From: a virus
DNA: 40,473 nt
Strand: one strand, 5' to 3'
Virus record (IMG/VR): IMGVR_UViG_3300023223_000360
Location: 1-40,473 of that record
Shown: positions 2,060 through 40,473 of the stretch, in pieces
How positions within the stretch are numbered: the first letter of the stretch is position 1
Layout of the letters: the number at the start of each line of letters is the position of its first letter
Position numbers and translations under genes: made by a program
The notes under the pieces: model-generated
The model's input: the letters and a program-made list of their open reading frames with translations, nothing else
Database searches by the model: none
What the model was told of the DNA's origin: nothing

Positions 2060-2123
2060 TTGCAATGTTGCGGATAGCAATTATATTAAGAGTAGTAAGA
2101 TAACTTAACGAAATAGGAAATAA
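2060..2123 (+). promoter_or_regulatory. phage promoter P2 with leader
   Basis: TTGCAA (2060-2065), 16 bp spacer, TATATT (2082-2087), AACTTAAC (2102-2109), then an AGGAAATAAC leader before the gene at 2128. The 32 bases from the -10 through the ACTTAAC box are identical to promoter P3 at 22456-22487. Confidence 0.8.
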
Positions 2124-2673: not shown

Positions 2674-3252
2674 ATGAAGATATATAAAGAATTAAGCAAG
2701 ATTCAGAAAGCTTTAAAGTGTAATAAAGGTCAAAAAAATACCTTTGGTAATTACGATTATAGATCAATTGAAGATATTTTAGAGGGATATAAAAAAGTTG
2801 ATAGTGATTCCGCTATTATCCTTTCCGATGAAATTGTCGTGATTGGAGATAGATTTTATGTAAAGGCAACCGCTACACTTGTTCTAGGTGACGAAAAGTT
2901 AAGTAATACAGCTTATGCGAGAGAGTCAGACAGCAAGAAAGGAATGGATGTCGCACAAGTGACTGGCTCGTCAAGTTCTTACGCTAGAAAGTACGCCTTA
3001 GCAGGTTTATTTGCTATTGATGACACTAAAGACGCAGATTCACACGATAACAGCCAACAGCCACAAGCTAGGCAACAGCAAAAACAGCCCATCTTAAAAG
3101 CTTTGCAACCAATCCACGCCGAGATAAAAAAGCTTACAGATAAACTTTCTACTGCTGATAATGATTTATATATTAGTCTAGGCGTAAATCCCTCTTGGAA
3201 TAAAGAAAGCTGTGAAGGTTGCTTGGCCTACCTTAAAAACTTGGCCAAGTAA
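2674..3252 (+). CDS. erf: ERF-family single-strand DNA annealing protein
   Basis: 192 residues. The N-terminal domain (about 1-125) matches the ERF pattern: an initial helix with a KALKCNKGQKNTFGNYDYRS-type stretch, then a beta core, and a conserved glycine/serine segment QVTGSSSSYARKYAL close to the end of the core. ERF proteins anneal complementary strands in phage recombination and genome circularisation. A Gln-rich linker (about 128-140) leads to a helical C-terminus ending in EGCLAYLKNL. A neighbouring exonuclease and VRR-NUC nuclease fit a recombination module. Confidence 0.88.
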   Translation: MKIYKELSKIQKALKCNKGQKNTFGNYDYRSIEDILEGYKKVDSDSAIILSDEIVVIGDRFYVKATATLVLGDEKLSNTAYARESDSKKGMDVAQVTGSSSSYARKYALAGLFAIDDTKDADSHDNSQQPQARQQQKQPILKALQPIHAEIKKLTDKLSTADNDLYISLGVNPSWNKESCEGCLAYLKNLAK

Positions 3253-20454: not shown

Positions 20455-21693
20455 TTAGGCTTGAGTCTTAAGAATCTTCATTGCTTGACCCTTCATCAAT
20501 CCGCCACCCGAACGCTTTTTCGCAATGTATTTAACATCGGGATATTGCGTAAGGTTGTCTCGTGTCACTTCAATTCCGCTACGATCAACGATTTGATATG
20601 CGCTTCTTACGTCACCATAAGCAACAGATAAAGAAGAACTAGCGACATCCGGCATTTCGAAAACTTCAATTAAAGGCGAACCTAAAATTGAGCTTGGAGC
20701 GCCGGCAGTTAGTGAAGGACTCCACAAGTATTGACCTTCCGAATCTTTCAACTTGCGAACAACAGCTTTAGTTAGACGGTTCATCATCCAAGAAGCATTC
20801 AAAGAATAAGAATTCTTTAATTGTGCCTGCGTGTCGATAAAGTCATCAAAAACAAGAGCGCCCGAACCTGCAGAAGTAATCTGCTCGATTGTATCAAATG
20901 CGTCGGTAGTTGAGTGAGCATAAGTTAATATCCCTCTTAAACCTTCACCAGTTGCATTTGTAGCAAATTCCGTTGCTTCAGTTATAGAGAAATCTTCTGA
21001 AATGCTCATAAGTAAATCAGCAACAAGATTAAACATTGAATCGTTTAATAGATTGGCTTCATAAAGAGCGATTGCGTAAAGATCGTCAACCTTGATAACT
21101 AAGTCACCGAAGTTATCTTTCTTTGTTTCAGCTGTGAAGTTAGCCATTGCACCTTTTCTCAAAGCGCCGTTGTTCTTCTTTCTGATAACACGATTATAAG
21201 AATCTGTCGAAATGTTAATAACAGAAGCTATTGAACGAATCGGTGAAAATTCACGTATTAATGAATCAATCTGTGAATCAAGGAAAGGTTTGATAAAGAT
21301 ACCACCATCTGCGGTATTACCCGAAACATGATTCTTTAATTCTTTAACGCTGATAAATTCCTCAGTATTAAAACCCATTGATTCCGGATTACGGCCGATA
21401 GTCTTTCTAAGGTTCATTAAAAACTCTTCAGTTTCTTTTCTGCCTTGAACATCTTTCGACATTTTGCTTTCAAGCTCAAGACGAGCCTTTGCGCTTTTCT
21501 CGATCTTATCAAGAGAAGCCAAAGCATCATCCATCTTACCGAGTTTTTCGTTCATCTGCTCAACGCCGGTATCTTTTTGACCCTTTACGTCTTCGCCGAT
21601 CTTTGTTAAATTTGCTTCGAAATCATCTTGACGAGTTTTTAATTCCTCGAAAAGAACCGTTTGCTTTTTAAGTAGCTCTACTGCTTCGCTCAT
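20455..21693 (-). CDS. HK97-fold major capsid protein
   Basis: 412 residues. Residues about 1-100 are a coiled-coil, Lys/Glu-rich scaffolding (delta) domain that the S78 protease, encoded just upstream, should remove. The remainder has HK97 features: an N-arm and E-loop region, an ASVINISTDS...NRVIRKKNNG part, P-domain helices (ISEDFSITEATEFATNATGEG) and a C-terminal strand with YGDVRSAYQIVDRSGIEV. Followed by the decoration-like gene. A canonical protease-capsid order supports the call. Confidence 0.92.
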   Translation of the reverse strand: MSEAVELLKKQTVLFEELKTRQDDFEANLTKIGEDVKGQKDTGVEQMNEKLGKMDDALASLDKIEKSAKARLELESKMSKDVQGRKETEEFLMNLRKTIGRNPESMGFNTEEFISVKELKNHVSGNTADGGIFIKPFLDSQIDSLIREFSPIRSIASVINISTDSYNRVIRKKNNGALRKGAMANFTAETKKDNFGDLVIKVDDLYAIALYEANLLNDSMFNLVADLLMSISEDFSITEATEFATNATGEGLRGILTYAHSTTDAFDTIEQITSAGSGALVFDDFIDTQAQLKNSYSLNASWMMNRLTKAVVRKLKDSEGQYLWSPSLTAGAPSSILGSPLIEVFEMPDVASSSLSVAYGDVRSAYQIVDRSGIEVTRDNLTQYPDVKYIAKKRSGGGLMKGQAMKILKTQA

Positions 21694-21707
21694 AATTGAA
21701 CCTTTAT

Positions 21708-22343
21708 TTAGTTGTTTTCTTTTAAATACTTGATTAATTCGCTGTCTTCATCCTCTTGTGAATCTCTCACAAAAGATTTAAAGCCTTTAGAACTAATTAT
21801 TAAAGCTTCTTTTTTCGAATAACCTAAATCTCTCAAGTGACTCTCAAATTCTCGCTCGTTTTTGTGTTTGTGATCGGAAACACCACCGTTATCATCTTTT
21901 AAGCCTGTTATTAAAGCGTTGGTATTCATAGGCCAAGTAACCAAAGAAATCTCATGTAAATCGACCTCTTTTAATACTCTCACGCCGTTATCATACTTAT
22001 GATCTTTCAGCATGTAACCAATACTCATTGAATTGATTTTGTTTTTAGCCATTAAAAATACAGCTTCTTTTGCCCGCTGTATATTCTCGTGGAATAACTG
22101 GCCCTTAACAAATAAACCCTCGTCGGTTTCTTTTGCGTCTGTCCATTCGCCAATAACTTCAGCGCTATCATGTTGCCATAACATCTGAATATTTTTAAAA
22201 CCCTTGATTAAAGTCTTTTTGAAAGCGCCCTTTTCGACTCGGTCATTACCCAAGTCAACATCATGAGTCGAAGCGAAACCTTCGAAAACGCCAGTCGATG
22301 AATCGAGGTTCTTAAACTCAACATTTAATTTCTTGTATTCCAT
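21708..22343 (-). CDS. HK97-type prohead protease (S78)
   Basis: 211 residues. The N-terminus (FEGFASTHDVDLGNDRVEKGAF) is the conserved start of U35/S78 prohead proteases. The probable catalytic residues are His58 in LWQHDS and Ser107 in the SMSIGY motif. It cleaves the capsid delta domain and itself during maturation. It precedes the capsid gene by 15 bases. Upstream, the opposite-strand cassette (22502-23704) breaks the usual link to the portal and head genes. Confidence 0.92.
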   Translation of the reverse strand: MEYKKLNVEFKNLDSSTGVFEGFASTHDVDLGNDRVEKGAFKKTLIKGFKNIQMLWQHDSAEVIGEWTDAKETDEGLFVKGQLFHENIQRAKEAVFLMAKNKINSMSIGYMLKDHKYDNGVRVLKEVDLHEISLVTWPMNTNALITGLKDDNGGVSDHKHKNEREFESHLRDLGYSKKEALIISSKGFKSFVRDSQEDEDSELIKYLKENN

Positions 22344-22433
22344 TTGCTACACTCCAAACTTTTTTTTGCTCTTTATATTAAAGTACTAACAAAACAAAAA
22401 AATACAAATGATCATTATTTTATTTAAAAGGTG

Positions 22434-22501
22434 TTGCAATCCGCAATAGCCCATGTATATTAAGAGTAGTAAGATAACTTAACGAAAAAAAGGAAATAAC
22501 G
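22434..22501 (+). promoter_or_regulatory. phage promoter P3 with leader
   Basis: TTGCAA (22434-22439), 16 bp spacer with the TTGC-N5-GCAA dyad over the -35, TATATT (22456-22461), AACTTAAC (22476-22483), and AAAAAAAGGAAATAACG directly before the gene at 22502. It is nearly identical to P2 over the -10 to ACTTAAC region. It gives the inserted cassette its own transcription in the direction opposite to the head operon. Confidence 0.85.
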
Positions 22502-22639
22502 ATGACACAGAAAATGAAAGAGCTACTAATTAAAATCGGCGAAAACAATATCAAGGTTTTAGAGGCAAAAAAACCAAAGGGTTATAAATCATTAATAACC
22601 TTATGGGAAAAAGATATTAAAGAAGCAAGGGGTAATTAA
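22502..22639 (+). CDS. small hypothetical protein, cassette gene 1
   Basis: 45 residues, helical and lysine-rich (LIKIGENNIKVLEAKKPKGY). The ideal AAGGAAATAAC leader precedes its ATG. No known family. It is the first gene of the plus-strand cassette inserted in the minus-strand head operon. Gene calling may miss it because of its length. Confidence 0.65.
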   Translation: MTQKMKELLIKIGENNIKVLEAKKPKGYKSLITLWEKDIKEARGN

Positions 22640-22640
22640 T

Positions 22641-22811
22641 ATGACACTTGACCAATTGCACGACCTAGCAGAGACATCGCCGAGGCATGAGAGATTCTTA
22701 ACCAAAATACATAATAAGGTAATTAAGCAATTAAGAAAAGAAAATAGGCCATCAAATAGCGATAATGTGATTCAATTAAAAGAAAAGTTTTGCCAAAGGT
22801 ACTCGCTATGA
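22641..22811 (+). CDS. small hypothetical protein, cassette gene 2
   Basis: 56 residues, basic and helical, beginning two bases after the previous stop. Its TGA overlaps the ATG of the PAPS-reductase-like gene (ATGA), so translation is likely coupled. No motif recognised. Tight packing suggests it functions with the enzyme that follows. Confidence 0.6.
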   Translation: MTLDQLHDLAETSPRHERFLTKIHNKVIKQLRKENRPSNSDNVIQLKEKFCQRYSL

Positions 22812-23704
22812 TATGCCATTTCTCATGCGGTGCGACTTCGGCAGTTGCGACAATCCTTGCATTAATGGAAGACAGCGAAGAAGCAATCGAGGCTGTATAC
22901 GCTGACCCAAGCATGGAACATGAAGACAATAAAAGATTCATGGAAGACTTTGAAGAGATTGCGGGAATAAAAATAACTGTTCTTAAAAGCAAAAAATATA
23001 AAGACCCTTTTGACGTATTTGACCAAAAAAGATTCTTGTCCGGTGTTTATGGCGCACCCTGCACTACTGAATTAAAGAAAAAGGTTATTGCCGACTACTT
23101 AGCAGAAAGGCTAGTTTTAGAACCTCATGTATTCGGTTTCACCTCAGATGAAGAAAGCAGGATAAAAAGATTTAAGGATAATAACCCCGAGATCGATTTA
23201 AGATTACCTTTAGTTGATAAAGGCTTATCTAAAGACGATTGCTTATTCATACTTAGAGAAATAGGGATAAGTTTGCCGATGATGTACAAGCTAGGCTATA
23301 GAAACGCAAACTGTACTGGCTGTGTAAAAGCTGAGTCGATTGGTTACTGGTCTGCCATTCGTGAAGACTTCCCCGTTATCTTTGAAAAGTTTTCTGAACG
23401 TGAAAGGCTATTTGGCAAAAAAATAGATGGTGTTCCTCGTGGTGTAGCAATTAATAAGCAATATAAAAAATGCGAAGATTGCAAGGATTCCAGTTGCGGT
23501 AATTGTGATAAAAATAATCAAGTTCGTCATCGTGTTTTTTTAGATGAAATACCGAAAGACTTTCCGCCAAAGAGATCAATTAGCTTTTCTTGTGGATATT
23601 CTTGCGGTACTCAAGATATGGAATTTATCGAGGATGAATTAACAAAAGAGCCAACGTTAACAGCTTGGATGATCTTAGAAGACATTAAAAGATGGTTGAG
23701 TTAA
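22808..23704 (+). CDS. PAPS-reductase-like (adenine nucleotide alpha hydrolase) protein
   Basis: 298 residues from the ATG at 22808; AAAGG lies 8-9 bases upstream and an in-frame TTG at 22790 is less likely. Near the start SCGATS is a variant of the SGG.DS PP-loop that binds ATP or adenylyl substrates. APCTTELKK (about 83-91) and NCTGCVKAESIGYW (about 168-181, in pieces) match phage PAPS-reductase-like proteins. Eight Cys in pairs (CTGC, CEDC, CGNC, CGYSCG) suggest zinc or iron-sulphur binding. Relatives include PAPS reductases, DndC and QueC-like enzymes, so it may act on sulphur or nucleic acids. It shares its TTAA stop with the opposing gene. Confidence 0.8.
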   Translation: MICHFSCGATSAVATILALMEDSEEAIEAVYADPSMEHEDNKRFMEDFEEIAGIKITVLKSKKYKDPFDVFDQKRFLSGVYGAPCTTELKKKVIADYLAERLVLEPHVFGFTSDEESRIKRFKDNNPEIDLRLPLVDKGLSKDDCLFILREIGISLPMMYKLGYRNANCTGCVKAESIGYWSAIREDFPVIFEKFSERERLFGKKIDGVPRGVAINKQYKKCEDCKDSSCGNCDKNNQVRHRVFLDEIPKDFPPKRSISFSCGYSCGTQDMEFIEDELTKEPTLTAWMILEDIKRWLS

Positions 23705-24447
23705 TCTTGACGTCGTAATCTTAAAAAACATCTGCAACCGATTGTCTCGGCCGGCCCGCCTGCAGGATCGCTTGGTCGCATCATCAAAGCGCTACCAACT
23801 CGGAACGGCTGATCAATTGGAACTCTTTGGCCGTCTGCCCTTATATGAGTAGGTCGGACCACTCTATCACGTTGCGAAATCCAAGTCTTATCAACCCGCT
23901 GATTAATTATTATACCTGCTTGTATTTGACCTCGTGAGGCTGAGTTGTGGGCCTCAGTTGCGCTAATAACATTAATCCTCGCTGTATTACGTTTCTTTAC
24001 ATCGGCAAGAATAGCGGTATTTAAAGTCGGGCCAGTTAATTCGGGAATAGCCGATAACGTTTCGGTAACTCTAATAAAAATTTTGATTGTGGTACGATTG
24101 ATTAATTGCGCTCTTTCTTTGCTATTAATAAGCATCCATAAAATCAAAGAGGCTGTTACTTCGCCCGCTATGCTATCGTTTTGCTCGTCTTTTGGCTGTA
24201 AATCATTAAGCGTAAATAGTGCGCCGGCTGTTGCTACTGCGGGTAAAACATCGTTGAAAATCTCTTCCAAATCTCTATCAGCATTAAGCAAAATTAATGC
24301 GCCACCGACTGCGGTGTTATCGTCTAATTGCTTTTTAAGTGTGTTTATTAGCCCGTTAAAATGCTTTATCAATCGCAAGCGTAAAACAGCTTCAAACTTG
24401 TCTAAAATTGAATTCCACGCCCTTTCTAATTGTGCGATATTAGCCAT
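23701..24447 (-). CDS. phage head morphogenesis protein (Mu gpF/SPP1 gp7-like)
   Basis: 248 residues. The C-terminal third holds the typical pattern: SATEAHNSASRGQ, VDKTWISQRDRVVRPTHIRADGQRVP in pieces, FRVG...MRPSDPAGGPAETIGCRCFLR, with the CRC end motif. These minor head proteins associate with the portal inside the prohead. It directly follows the portal gene (start overlapping by one base). Its stop overlaps that of the opposing cassette, sharing TTAA at 23701-23704. Confidence 0.85.
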   Translation of the reverse strand: MANIAQLERAWNSILDKFEAVLRLRLIKHFNGLINTLKKQLDDNTAVGGALILLNADRDLEEIFNDVLPAVATAGALFTLNDLQPKDEQNDSIAGEVTASLILWMLINSKERAQLINRTTIKIFIRVTETLSAIPELTGPTLNTAILADVKKRNTARINVISATEAHNSASRGQIQAGIIINQRVDKTWISQRDRVVRPTHIRADGQRVPIDQPFRVGSALMMRPSDPAGGPAETIGCRCFLRLRRQD

Positions 24448-25718
24448 TAAACGTTATTATTTAAATCGTTGCTGTTATTTGGCTTATCCATATCCCCGAA
24501 AAATATATCACCGCCGAACTCTATCACTTCAAGCCCCGAAGCTGAACGAGCTTCCGCCAGCGTCATAATTTTTGATTGATAATGTTTTCTAGCGCTTTCG
24601 AGTGTTCTTTCCCTCTTTTCTGCCAGTGCTGATATTTCATTAAGATTAACTTTGTATTGAATTTGCTTATCGAATAAACGTGTATGATAACTAGAAAGCA
24701 TCTCATAATATTCGTTAATTATTGGCAATACAGCTTCTTCGTATAAGCTTTCTTTGGCTTCTTTTTGATTATTAAAAGTCGCTCCGGCAATACCAAGAAG
24801 ATATGGCGGATAATTTAAAGCGTTACAAATCTCGATAGCTTTTGATTTTTGGCCCTCGATGAAATCCATGTCTTGCGGTGATAAAGAAATTGTATCAAGT
24901 CGCCCTTTGGCGTTCATTACTGCGATACCGCCTTGATGTGATCTAAACTTTTTATTGATGTCATCGGCTAAAGCTTTTACCTCTTCCGGTGTCATTGCTT
25001 CGAAGTCGTCGCCGTCGCTATCCAGTGTTAAAATGCCCGATAGCTTTGAACCGTTATCAAACATGCCTTTATTCCACTCGTTGGCGTTGTTATACTGCTC
25101 TAATGACATCCCGCCCGCTGATATTGGTGATAAACCGTCGATATCTGACAAAGGATTAAACGTCTTAAAAAACAACAAATCAAAATAGCCGTCTTCGTTA
25201 CGTTCGAAAGTCTTTTGTATTGAGCCGTTATTGTATTGCATCGAAATAATCTTATCTGAGCCACTGGTATTTTTTTGGATTCTGTCGGGCCTATAACCTT
25301 CTGTATCCATAATAACGCCACTCGATGTCGTATCAGTATGCACGTAAAACTCACCTTGGATTAATCTGTGAGAAATAACCTCGTGAAGTAATTGCTTTCC
25401 GGATTGGTCGGCATTTGGTTGAGTCATATTGAATAAAAGACTCTTTGTTAAACGATCGCCCATGCCAATTTCTTGCAATTTGCCGTCTATATATAACTCG
25501 ACTGGAATATTTTGGGCACTTGTAGCAATTCGGTTTATGCAATGGTAAGCGATAACGTTTTGAGCGTATCCCTTTTTTGCTAACGTCCGATAATTATTAC
25601 TGTATATAATGTTTTCGGTGAATTGGTCTAAAAAAACTAAATCATTCATTCCATTACCGTTAGTAATAGACTTTTTGTTTTTACTACTACTAAAGATATT
25701 GCGAATATATTTAAACAT
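24447..25718 (-). CDS. HK97-family portal protein
   Basis: 423 residues. The sequence fits HK97 portals: an N-terminal VAYHCINRIATSAQNIPVELY-type part in pieces, PNADQSGKQLLHEVISHRLIQGEFYV, then a central SLSPQDMDFIEGQKSKAIEICNALNYPPYLLGIAG region and ATFNNQKEAKESLYEEAVLPI in pieces. Portals form the dodecameric DNA gate at one capsid vertex. The upstream 275 bp lacks genes and holds inverted repeats. Confidence 0.9.
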   Translation of the reverse strand: MFKYIRNIFSSSKNKKSITNGNGMNDLVFLDQFTENIIYSNNYRTLAKKGYAQNVIAYHCINRIATSAQNIPVELYIDGKLQEIGMGDRLTKSLLFNMTQPNADQSGKQLLHEVISHRLIQGEFYVHTDTTSSGVIMDTEGYRPDRIQKNTSGSDKIISMQYNNGSIQKTFERNEDGYFDLLFFKTFNPLSDIDGLSPISAGGMSLEQYNNANEWNKGMFDNGSKLSGILTLDSDGDDFEAMTPEEVKALADDINKKFRSHQGGIAVMNAKGRLDTISLSPQDMDFIEGQKSKAIEICNALNYPPYLLGIAGATFNNQKEAKESLYEEAVLPIINEYYEMLSSYHTRLFDKQIQYKVNLNEISALAEKRERTLESARKHYQSKIMTLAEARSASGLEVIEFGGDIFFGDMDKPNNSNDLNNNV

Positions 25719-30399: not shown

Positions 30400-30464
30400 G
30401 TTATTTCCTCGTTTGTGTTATTGTTAAGTTAAGTATAATATAAACGCTCTATTGCATAATGCAA
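30400..30464 (-). promoter_or_regulatory. phage promoter P5 with leader
   Basis: Minus strand: TTGCAT (30459-30464) with TTGC-ATTAT-GCAA dyad, 16 bp spacer, TATATT (30437-30442), doubled ACTTAACTTAAC (30423-30434), then GAGGAAATAAC before the gene at 30399. It lies downstream of a strong terminator. Confidence 0.83.
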
Positions 30465-33426: not shown

Positions 33427-33639
33427 TTATTTTACACCTTTTCTATTAAAATAACGTCTAATTAAATAACTTCTAGCTAATGAGATTATAGTAAAATATA
33501 ACCCTATTTTTAAATTTTGCCCAAAAGTAACATAAACTCCGACGATTGGAAAAACGATTAACTGAGAAATTAAAGCAACCAAATAGCCGATAACTGTATT
33601 AACAATTGACTCGGTTAAAGATTGCCTCTTGGTTTGCAT
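33427..33639 (-). CDS. DUF7220-type small membrane protein
   Basis: 70 residues. The pattern KRQSLTESIVNTVIGYLVALISQLIVFPIVG...LKIGLYFTIISLARSYLIRRYFN is characteristic of the DUF7220 family of two-helix membrane proteins found widely in phages, usually next to replication or nucleic-acid enzyme genes. Function is not known. It abuts the methyltransferase stop. Confidence 0.75.
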   Translation of the reverse strand: MQTKRQSLTESIVNTVIGYLVALISQLIVFPIVGVYVTFGQNLKIGLYFTIISLARSYLIRRYFNRKGVK

Positions 33640-34841
33640 TACTCGGCGACTCCAGTTTCGAAGACCGTTTCGGGGTCGATGCCTTTAAACTTGCAATAAC
33701 GCCTAACGATGACGTCGCAATATTTTGGATCAAGTTCCATCATACGGCATTGCCTAGAAGTTTCCTCGCAGGCTATAAGGGTTGAACCCGAACCGCCAAA
33801 GAGATCGAGAACTAATTCACCTTTTTTAGCGGAATTTTTAATAGCCCTTGCGCATAGCTCAATGGGTTTCATAGTAGGATGCAAGTCATTCTTCTTGGTC
33901 TTACTTATATCCCAAAAATCCCACTCAGCCTTACCACCATGAAAATTATGATCATTAATCCATCCGTAAATAATTGGCTCATAATTACTCTTATAATCTG
34001 AGTTACTTAATGTCCCTCCTTTTTTGAACCAAATTATCTGCGCTCTATATTTTAAGTCGTTTTCATCTAATGCCCTAAATACATAATCAACCCCGAGGCG
34101 ATAAAAACATATATAATAAGCGCCAGTGCAAAACTCTTTTATATTTTTCACAATACTAGAAATAAAAACGTCCCCATCCGCCCTCGACATCTTATCGTTT
34201 TTTATAGCGCCATGAATAGCCCCGAAAGACTTCGAACCATCAGCATTCACCGCACCAGTAAAATTCATTAAATAAGGTGGATCAGTAAACGTCATCTCAG
34301 CTTTTTTACCATCCATTAATAACCCGACATCTTTCTCGCTTGTTGAGTCACCACACATTAAACGATGATTACCTAATTGATAAATACGTCCCAATTCGGT
34401 TACAGGGTTTTCCGGCGGTTCTTCGTCAAAATCATCTTCTTCAACTTCGGGGTCTTCTTCATCTTCAAAAAAATCTAATTCCCCTTCTTCAAATCCCCAC
34501 GCTAATAAATCGGCGGTATCAAATTCATTACCTAAAACGTCATAATCCCATGAACCGCTATTTTTATTAAGACGTACATTAAGCTCTTTTTCACGCTCTA
34601 AAGTCAAATCTAACTCAACAGTAGGAACAAGCTCCATTCCCATCTCTAAAGCGACTCTTGTACGTTGGTGACCGCCGATTATTATATCTTTACGGTCTTT
34701 GTTAATATTAACGATAATAGGATCAACAAAACCGAATCGTTTTAAACTTGCGCTTATCTGTTGATGTTCTTCGATGCTTAACTGCCGAGGATTGTAACTG
34801 GCGGGAATTAAGTCTTTTGGATTTCTTTCAATTATTTTCAT
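33639..34841 (-). CDS. ParB-like domain fused to DNA methyltransferase
   Basis: 400 residues. Residues about 1-100 form a ParB/Srx-like domain with IIGGHQRTRVALEMG. An acidic linker (EDEEDPEVEEDDFDEEPP) follows. The C-terminal part has DPPY (187-190, motif IV) before FGGSG (348-352, motif I), the beta-class order, and HPTMKPIEL in between. DNA adenine or cytosine-N4 methylation could protect phage DNA. Fusions of ParB and methyltransferase domains occur in phages and plasmids. Confidence 0.9.
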   Translation of the reverse strand: MKIIERNPKDLIPASYNPRQLSIEEHQQISASLKRFGFVDPIIVNINKDRKDIIIGGHQRTRVALEMGMELVPTVELDLTLEREKELNVRLNKNSGSWDYDVLGNEFDTADLLAWGFEEGELDFFEDEEDPEVEEDDFDEEPPENPVTELGRIYQLGNHRLMCGDSTSEKDVGLLMDGKKAEMTFTDPPYLMNFTGAVNADGSKSFGAIHGAIKNDKMSRADGDVFISSIVKNIKEFCTGAYYICFYRLGVDYVFRALDENDLKYRAQIIWFKKGGTLSNSDYKSNYEPIIYGWINDHNFHGGKAEWDFWDISKTKKNDLHPTMKPIELCARAIKNSAKKGELVLDLFGGSGSTLIACEETSRQCRMMELDPKYCDVIVRRYCKFKGIDPETVFETGVAE

Positions 34842-40329: not shown

Positions 40330-40473
40330 GCCTTGACCTATTGCAAATAGCATTATATATTGAGGTAACTTAACAAAAGGAAATAACGAAAAATGGAAAA
40401 ACCGATCATTATAGAACTACCAAAAATCTCAAGGACTTTATTTACCTATGAGACTTATGGCGTAAAAATGGGC
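40330..40473. repeat. terminal direct repeat, copy 2
   Basis: Exact copy of bases 1-144, including P1, its leader and the 5' end of the gene at 64. The partial gene here is the same gene as at 64-399, not a second one. Confidence 0.95.

Follow-up and report, generated by a model that had tools for sequence, protein, structure and literature searches.

A Putative PptA-Type Sulphurtransferase Encoded Against the Head Genes of a Phage and Its Possible Role in DNA Phosphorothioation

Introduction

The head operon of the phage described here is interrupted by a short cassette on the opposite strand, whose main product is, judged by its sequence, a member of the large phage family phrog_424 (PptA type), a clade apart from CysH that by profile lies nearest to SspD. 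We consider it highly probable that this enzyme is a sulphurtransferase that receives its sulphur from a cysteine desulfurase of the host; the acceptor would probably be a nucleic acid, most likely the phage's own DNA. By analogy with known systems, the chances that the enzyme carries out DNA phosphorothioation appear evenly balanced, and we would give about the same weight to the reading as a whole, namely a stand-alone, ATP-dependent sulphurtransferase of the PptA family that takes its sulphur from a host desulfurase and phosphorothioates phage DNA for self-protection. A role in modification or counter-defence is our best guess, based on homology and on the complex of a homologue with IscS. 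The phrog_424/PptA family is known, common and mis-filed as sulphate metabolism, and its biochemical role is only now emerging. Its database label, phosphoadenosine phosphosulfate (PAPS) reductase, suggests sulphate metabolism; the evidence assembled here instead groups the family with enzymes of DNA phosphorothioation and ties it to cysteine desulfurase.

The Cassette and Its Place in the Genome

The window, that is the whole stretch of DNA analyzed, is an entire virus record of 40,473 bases, and its two ends (1-144 and 40330-40473) are identical direct repeats of 144 nt, as would be expected of a complete genome. The cassette (22434-23704) consists of a promoter, an ORF of 45 amino acids, an ORF of 56 amino acids and then the gene of the 298-aa enzyme (Table 1). 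A preliminary description had reported a plus-strand cassette with its own promoter, two tiny proteins and a PAPS-reductase-like enzyme, set between head genes that read the other way; all of these parts are present, and both flanking genes, for an S78 protease and a MuF-like protein, lie on the minus strand. The enzyme gene and the MuF-like gene converge with a 4-bp overlap of their stops. The start of the enzyme was taken as the ATG at 22808, which is likely given its overlap with the preceding stop; the same frame is also open from a TTG at 22790. A search of the cassette DNA against phages gave no match, and no relatives of the two flanking genes were found in IMG/VR. Among 80 TerL relatives, compared with a view to the moron insertion suggested earlier, a MuF-like or protease match was seen in only 7 and both together in none, and no empty site was observed.

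Table 1. Positions of the cassette, its flanking genes, its promoter elements and the predicted motifs of the enzyme.
Feature	Position	Strand	Basis or remark
Cassette promoter TTGCAA-N16-TATATT	22434-22461	+	Exact phage motif
-10 box and leader, 32 nt	22456-22487	+	Identical to 2082-2113; 0 expected
Sister promoter and leader	2060-2113	+	Precedes operon with Erf-like annealing protein (2674-3252)
45-aa small ORF	22502-22639	+	AGGAAATAAC ahead of ATG, as at other leaders; matches no family
56-aa small ORF	22641-22811	+	Stop overlaps enzyme start as ATGA; matches no family
PptA/phrog_424-type PP-loop sulphurtransferase (predicted), 298 aa	22808-23704	+	Profiles, alignment, tree
PP-loop S6-C-G8-A-T-S11 (SCGATS, aa 6-11)	22823-22840	+	S, G and S in 107/107
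C85-T-T-E-L-K90 motif	23060-23077	+	C85 and K90 in 107/107
C169-x2-C172	23312-23323	+	Both in 107/107
Insert, about aa 208-240, CxxC-x4-CxxC at 222-233	23429-23527	+	Particular to the window protein
C-terminal C262-x3-C266 pair	23591-23605	+	C262 in 107/107, C266 in 106/107
S78 prohead protease (flank)	21708-22343	-	Domain and phrog profile matches
MuF-like head morphogenesis protein (flank)	23701-24447	-	Domain and phrog profile matches

The cassette had also been thought to have adopted the phage's own promoter set, and the sequence bears this out. The window holds five exact copies of TTGCAA-N16-TATATT (at 2060+, 22434+, 29178-, 38000-, and 39266-) against 0.02 expected from shuffles, with further copies at 30437, 32127, and 39792 when one mismatch is allowed; at two or fewer mismatches there are 22 copies against 15.1 by chance, an unconvincing excess. 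The claim of a cassette promoter is based on this exact motif and the common leader and not on the sigma-70 consensus, which alone yields five promoter-like sites, fewer than shuffles do (10.4). Across the phage, a TTGC-GCAA type inverted repeat often lies in or near the first hexamer of these promoters. The operon behind the sister promoter encodes an Erf-like single-strand annealing protein, an anti-repressor-like protein and a DNA polymerase exonuclease-like protein. Because its promoter and leader duplicate those of this DNA-recombination operon, the cassette should be read with that operon and against the head genes. On this basis it resembles an island of early genes inside a late operon, and we infer that it is transcribed early. 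The search for a plus-strand terminator-like site after the cassette (21500-25000) found none, therefore antisense read-through into the head genes (23704-24447) is possible.

Family Membership

The first searches (domain, phrog, NCBIfam, PADLOC, and phmmer/tblastn) used the 297-aa protein lacking Met1, which matched phrog_424 at 5e-42. The Pfam PAPS_reduct model gave 19 bits, below its cut-off of 22.5, while the best PADLOC model was SspD, at 3e-16 over aa 2-200 (3.8e-16 without Met1). The family was recovered from 52 phage records by tblastn, from 25 IMG/VR loci with the single protein as query and from at least 575 IMG/VR stretches with an alignment as query, 80 of which were kept; in genome contigs, 56 of 88 pattern-matching stretches carry it. 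Of 161 loci to which an ORF was assigned, 159 gave a match to the window protein and 143 passed a length and coverage filter, at which point the window's own copy (L011) was dropped; removal of near-copies left 106, to which the window protein was added to give a set of 107.

A profile built from these 107 homologues matched all seven SspD proteins offered (E 1.7e-10 to 3.6e-19) and, where clearly matched, NinC proteins at 1.6e-8 to 2.6e-6, whereas DndC reached only 0.008 and 0.68 and the CysH/APS reductases 0.00085 to over 4. A separate alignment of 36 rows includes the window copy and three fragments (L034-L036). The tree, likewise of 36 rows, was built from every sixth protein of the set of 107 plus references, with YbdN left out as well as one SspD (L192) that was scored with the profile. 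From a short search and with SH-aLRT support only, this tree separates PptA (98; 19 rows on one side of the branch), CysH/APR (99), DndC (100), NinC (93), and SspD (83). The earlier suggestion of a PAPS-reductase-like PP-loop protein with relatives in phosphorothioation is upheld, with SspD the nearest of these by profile and DndC further off. The result named beforehand as weighing against it, a clear CysH-type match with assimilation genes only, was not found, and profile, tree and motif all argue against CysH.

Conserved Residues and Predicted Fold

Eleven residues are invariant in all 107 homologues, namely S6, G8, S11, C85, K90, G110, E115, R118, C169, C172, and C262. The SCGATS variant of the PP-loop and the four cysteine pairs described previously (169/172, 222/225, 230/233, and 262/266) are indeed present in the enzyme, and only 169/172 and 262/266 are family-wide; the other two sit in a near-unique insert, where C225, C230, and C233 each occur in 1 of 107 proteins and C222 in 2 of 107. 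Some other members have inserts at the same place (L002-L004 and L010) and these are cysteine-poor. By alignment, the CxxC-x4-CxxC insert is absent from nearly all other members and is specific to the phage of the window.

Several of these elements recur in related proteins. Like the window enzyme, PptA of phage VH-5 belongs to phrog_424 and has the same invariant residues, although it lacks the CxxC-x4-CxxC insert and its gene sits after that of a phage RNA polymerase. SspD of the SspABCD system has in common with the window enzyme a PP-loop, CT-x-x-[LM]-K, CxxC and a C-terminal Cys pair, but it reads SGG[KR]DS with a CxxC at its very end where the window enzyme reads SCGATS with CxxxC, and although the two are related (3e-16) the window enzyme falls in its own PptA clade. 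DndC of DndABCDE likewise has the PP-loop, CTxxLK, and CxxC, yet it is about 490 aa long and forms a separate clade, and neither of the two DndC sequences read ends in such a Cys pair. NinC of phage lambda, which matches phrog_424 at 1.2e-89 and SspD at 1.8e-14, carries the motifs of the window enzyme including the C-terminal CxxxC, but has SGGRTS as its PP-loop and groups in a clade separate from PptA; its gene is located in the recombination region. The C-terminal pair is common to PptA, SspD, and NinC. APS reductases resemble the window enzyme in fold and PP-loop domain and have CCxxRK and CxxC, at which they hold an iron-sulphur cluster, while E. coli CysH and YbdN have neither CT-x-x-[LM]-K nor CxxC. 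The CysH/APR proteins end in ECGLH in 6 of 6 rows, in contrast to SCGYSC in the window enzyme.

The AF2 model of the enzyme, with an overall pLDDT of 79.7, is of low confidence around 210-222; with values below 50 at 258-277, it does not give the geometry of the C-terminal Cys pair. Foldseek/VIA searches with this model, against a library ending in April 2026, returned CysH/APS reductases first (Z about 10-12), followed by GMP synthetase, LarE, ThiI, TtuA, and NcsA; entry 21fy, described below, did not appear in the results, an absence that carries no weight. Structure prediction, which had been proposed as a check, supports a PP-loop fold with CysH/APS reductases in the lead; since the matches span the whole PP-loop class, the fold does not choose the substrate and the substrate family is left undecided by it.

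Sulphur Supply

One PDB sequence matches the enzyme strongly, chain C of entry 21fy, a 270-aa protein named "PptA" (phmmer 9e-48 over aa 1-203; 1e-101 with the alignment). Over the matched stretch this sequence agrees at 100% identity with a protein of the Vibrio harveyi phage vB_VhaP_VH-5 that is annotated as hypothetical. There are two PptA chains in 21fy, and E. coli IscS is in the entry too (its sequence class comprises 1p3w and 21fy). This shared entry suggests that PptA of VH-5 binds host cysteine desulfurase. A literature search, with most subscription journals and preprints outside its coverage, returned no paper on PptA, 21fy or a one-protein phage phosphorothioation enzyme.

A second pointer comes from Thalassotalea sp. 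42_200_T64 (L125, 5899-12437), in which the gene immediately preceding an sspA cysteine desulfurase gene (PADLOC 1.4e-129), and sharing its strand, encodes a family member; sspD (1.5e-103) and sspC (0) come next, on the opposite strand. Here the PptA-family gene may be an extra subunit or a swap within the Ssp locus. Ssp neighbours were found in this one of 170 loci (L001-L170), so the locus is a pointer and not a rule. In the window itself, queries for SspA, SspC, a second SspD-like protein, DndB, DndC, DndD, and IscS found none (best E 0.49 and 0.66): the SspA, SspC and SspC-like queries had no match below E 0.49, and DndB, DndC, and DndD none at E up to 1. These partners, which Dnd and Ssp require, are thus missing. 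SspD, for its part, acts together with SspB and SspC (PMC12707154), and IscS can act as sulphur donor for host PT systems (PMC13251355; PMC12839542).

Proposed Mechanism and Alternatives

In the mechanism we propose, a host cysteine desulfurase of the IscS class would bind the enzyme and pass on persulphide sulphur. Going by residue invariance and the motifs of SspD and DndC, the sulphur may be kept on the C262/C266 pair or at an iron-sulphur site formed by C85, C169, and C172; in one arrangement a cluster or metal would sit at C85/C169/C172, while C262/C266 would relay persulphide supplied by the host desulfurase. A cluster and relay are proposed because CTxxLK and CxxC are common to PptA, SspD, DndC, and NinC, together with the C-terminal pair of PptA, SspD, and NinC. 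The PP-loop would then bind ATP and adenylate a nucleic-acid phosphate, and sulphur would displace AMP to leave a phosphorothioate, as in DNA phosphorothioation; phosphorothioation by way of an adenylated intermediate has reportedly been found for Tdp. Made early, the enzyme could mark phage DNA and shield it from host nucleases or from phosphorothioate-sensing defences.

DNA is preferred as the substrate because of the affinity with SspD and the DNA-recombination and replication neighbours. Counted against it are the single Ssp-associated locus, the missing partners and the case of lambda, which carries the distant relative NinC and whose DNA is not known to be phosphorothioated. The main competitor is an RNA sulphurtransferase, equally charged by a host desulfurase, that would act on tRNA or other RNA and so keep translation going or block tRNA-targeting defences. 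The fold matches include structures of TtuA, NcsA, ThiI, and MnmA, the three invariant cysteines of the enzyme equal in number those of TtuA and NcsA, whose clusters are the basis of this comparison, the phage has one tRNA-Leu, and the CxxC-x4-CxxC insert could bind nucleic acid. We nevertheless regard RNA as an unlikely target, given that the sequence profiles favour SspD and NinC, that Pfam and NCBIfam revealed no tRNA-binding domain in the enzyme and that the gene context is one of DNA recombination and replication. Somewhat less likely still is a role in counter-defence, in which the protein would sequester or inhibit host IscS and so deprive IscS-dependent host phosphorothioation or other sulphur pathways of their supply, with no catalysis on nucleic acid. 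This would agree with the presence of the homologue and IscS in one PDB entry and with the sulphur donation to host PT systems cited above; however, all 107 proteins retain the PP-loop, C85, C169, C172, C262, and E115/R118, which fits catalysis better than mere binding.

The two remaining explanations are far weaker. A true three-gene system with the 45-aa and 56-aa proteins as essential subunits, as tight spacing, the ATGA overlap and a common promoter might suggest, seems very doubtful, considering that no similar small ORF stands beside other family members and that the 56-aa protein has no relative in IMG/VR. Least credible of all is that the enzyme serves sulphate assimilation as an auxiliary metabolic APS/PAPS reductase of the CysH type. 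CysH/APS reductases do lead the fold matches and databases name the family PAPS reductase, but in the tree the family groups apart from CysH/APR, the profile scores of CysH/APR are poor, the enzyme ends in SCGYSC and no sulphate-assimilation gene was recognized among the window proteins scanned; in sequence terms, motif, profile and tree rule this enzyme type out.

If the sulphur acceptor is indeed phage DNA, a single gene would suffice for phages to make a backbone modification that has until now been described from multi-gene systems of bacteria, and this would bear directly on phosphorothioate-sensing defences. We tentatively suggest, at somewhat less than even chances, that one phage protein, unaccompanied by Dnd or Ssp partner genes, draws on a host cysteine desulfurase to sulphurate phage DNA, that a large proportion of the phage genes assigned to sulphate assimilation as "PAPS reductase" are such one-enzyme phosphorothioation systems and that the enzyme of this phage has acquired a CxxC-x4-CxxC finger of its own, which could set the target.

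Gene Context and the Small ORFs

Neighbours at other loci of the family include replication initiation, RusA, exonuclease, and methyltransferase genes, and no neighbour is constant across loci; the flanks are of unequal length, and missing neighbours may lie outside them. The preliminary description had treated the enzyme and its two small companions as a set that might recur in other phages. This part did not hold up: neither small ORF clustered with neighbour ORFs at the family's other loci, an IMG/VR scan found no relative of the 56-aa protein, and the check for the three-gene set in other phages gave no conserved partners, on which ground the three-gene system was rejected. The two ORFs are best read as ordinary early-gene passengers and not as constant subunits.

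At four loci (L037, L049, L103, and L141) two PAPS-reductase-like genes are adjacent, one of the PptA type and one weaker and NinC-like. A further gene of the window, at 33639-34841, specifies a DNA methyltransferase that carries a ParB-like domain at its N-terminus (phrog_498 3e-120; type II methyltransferase model 1.4e-98) and may be a second DNA-modification gene of this phage.
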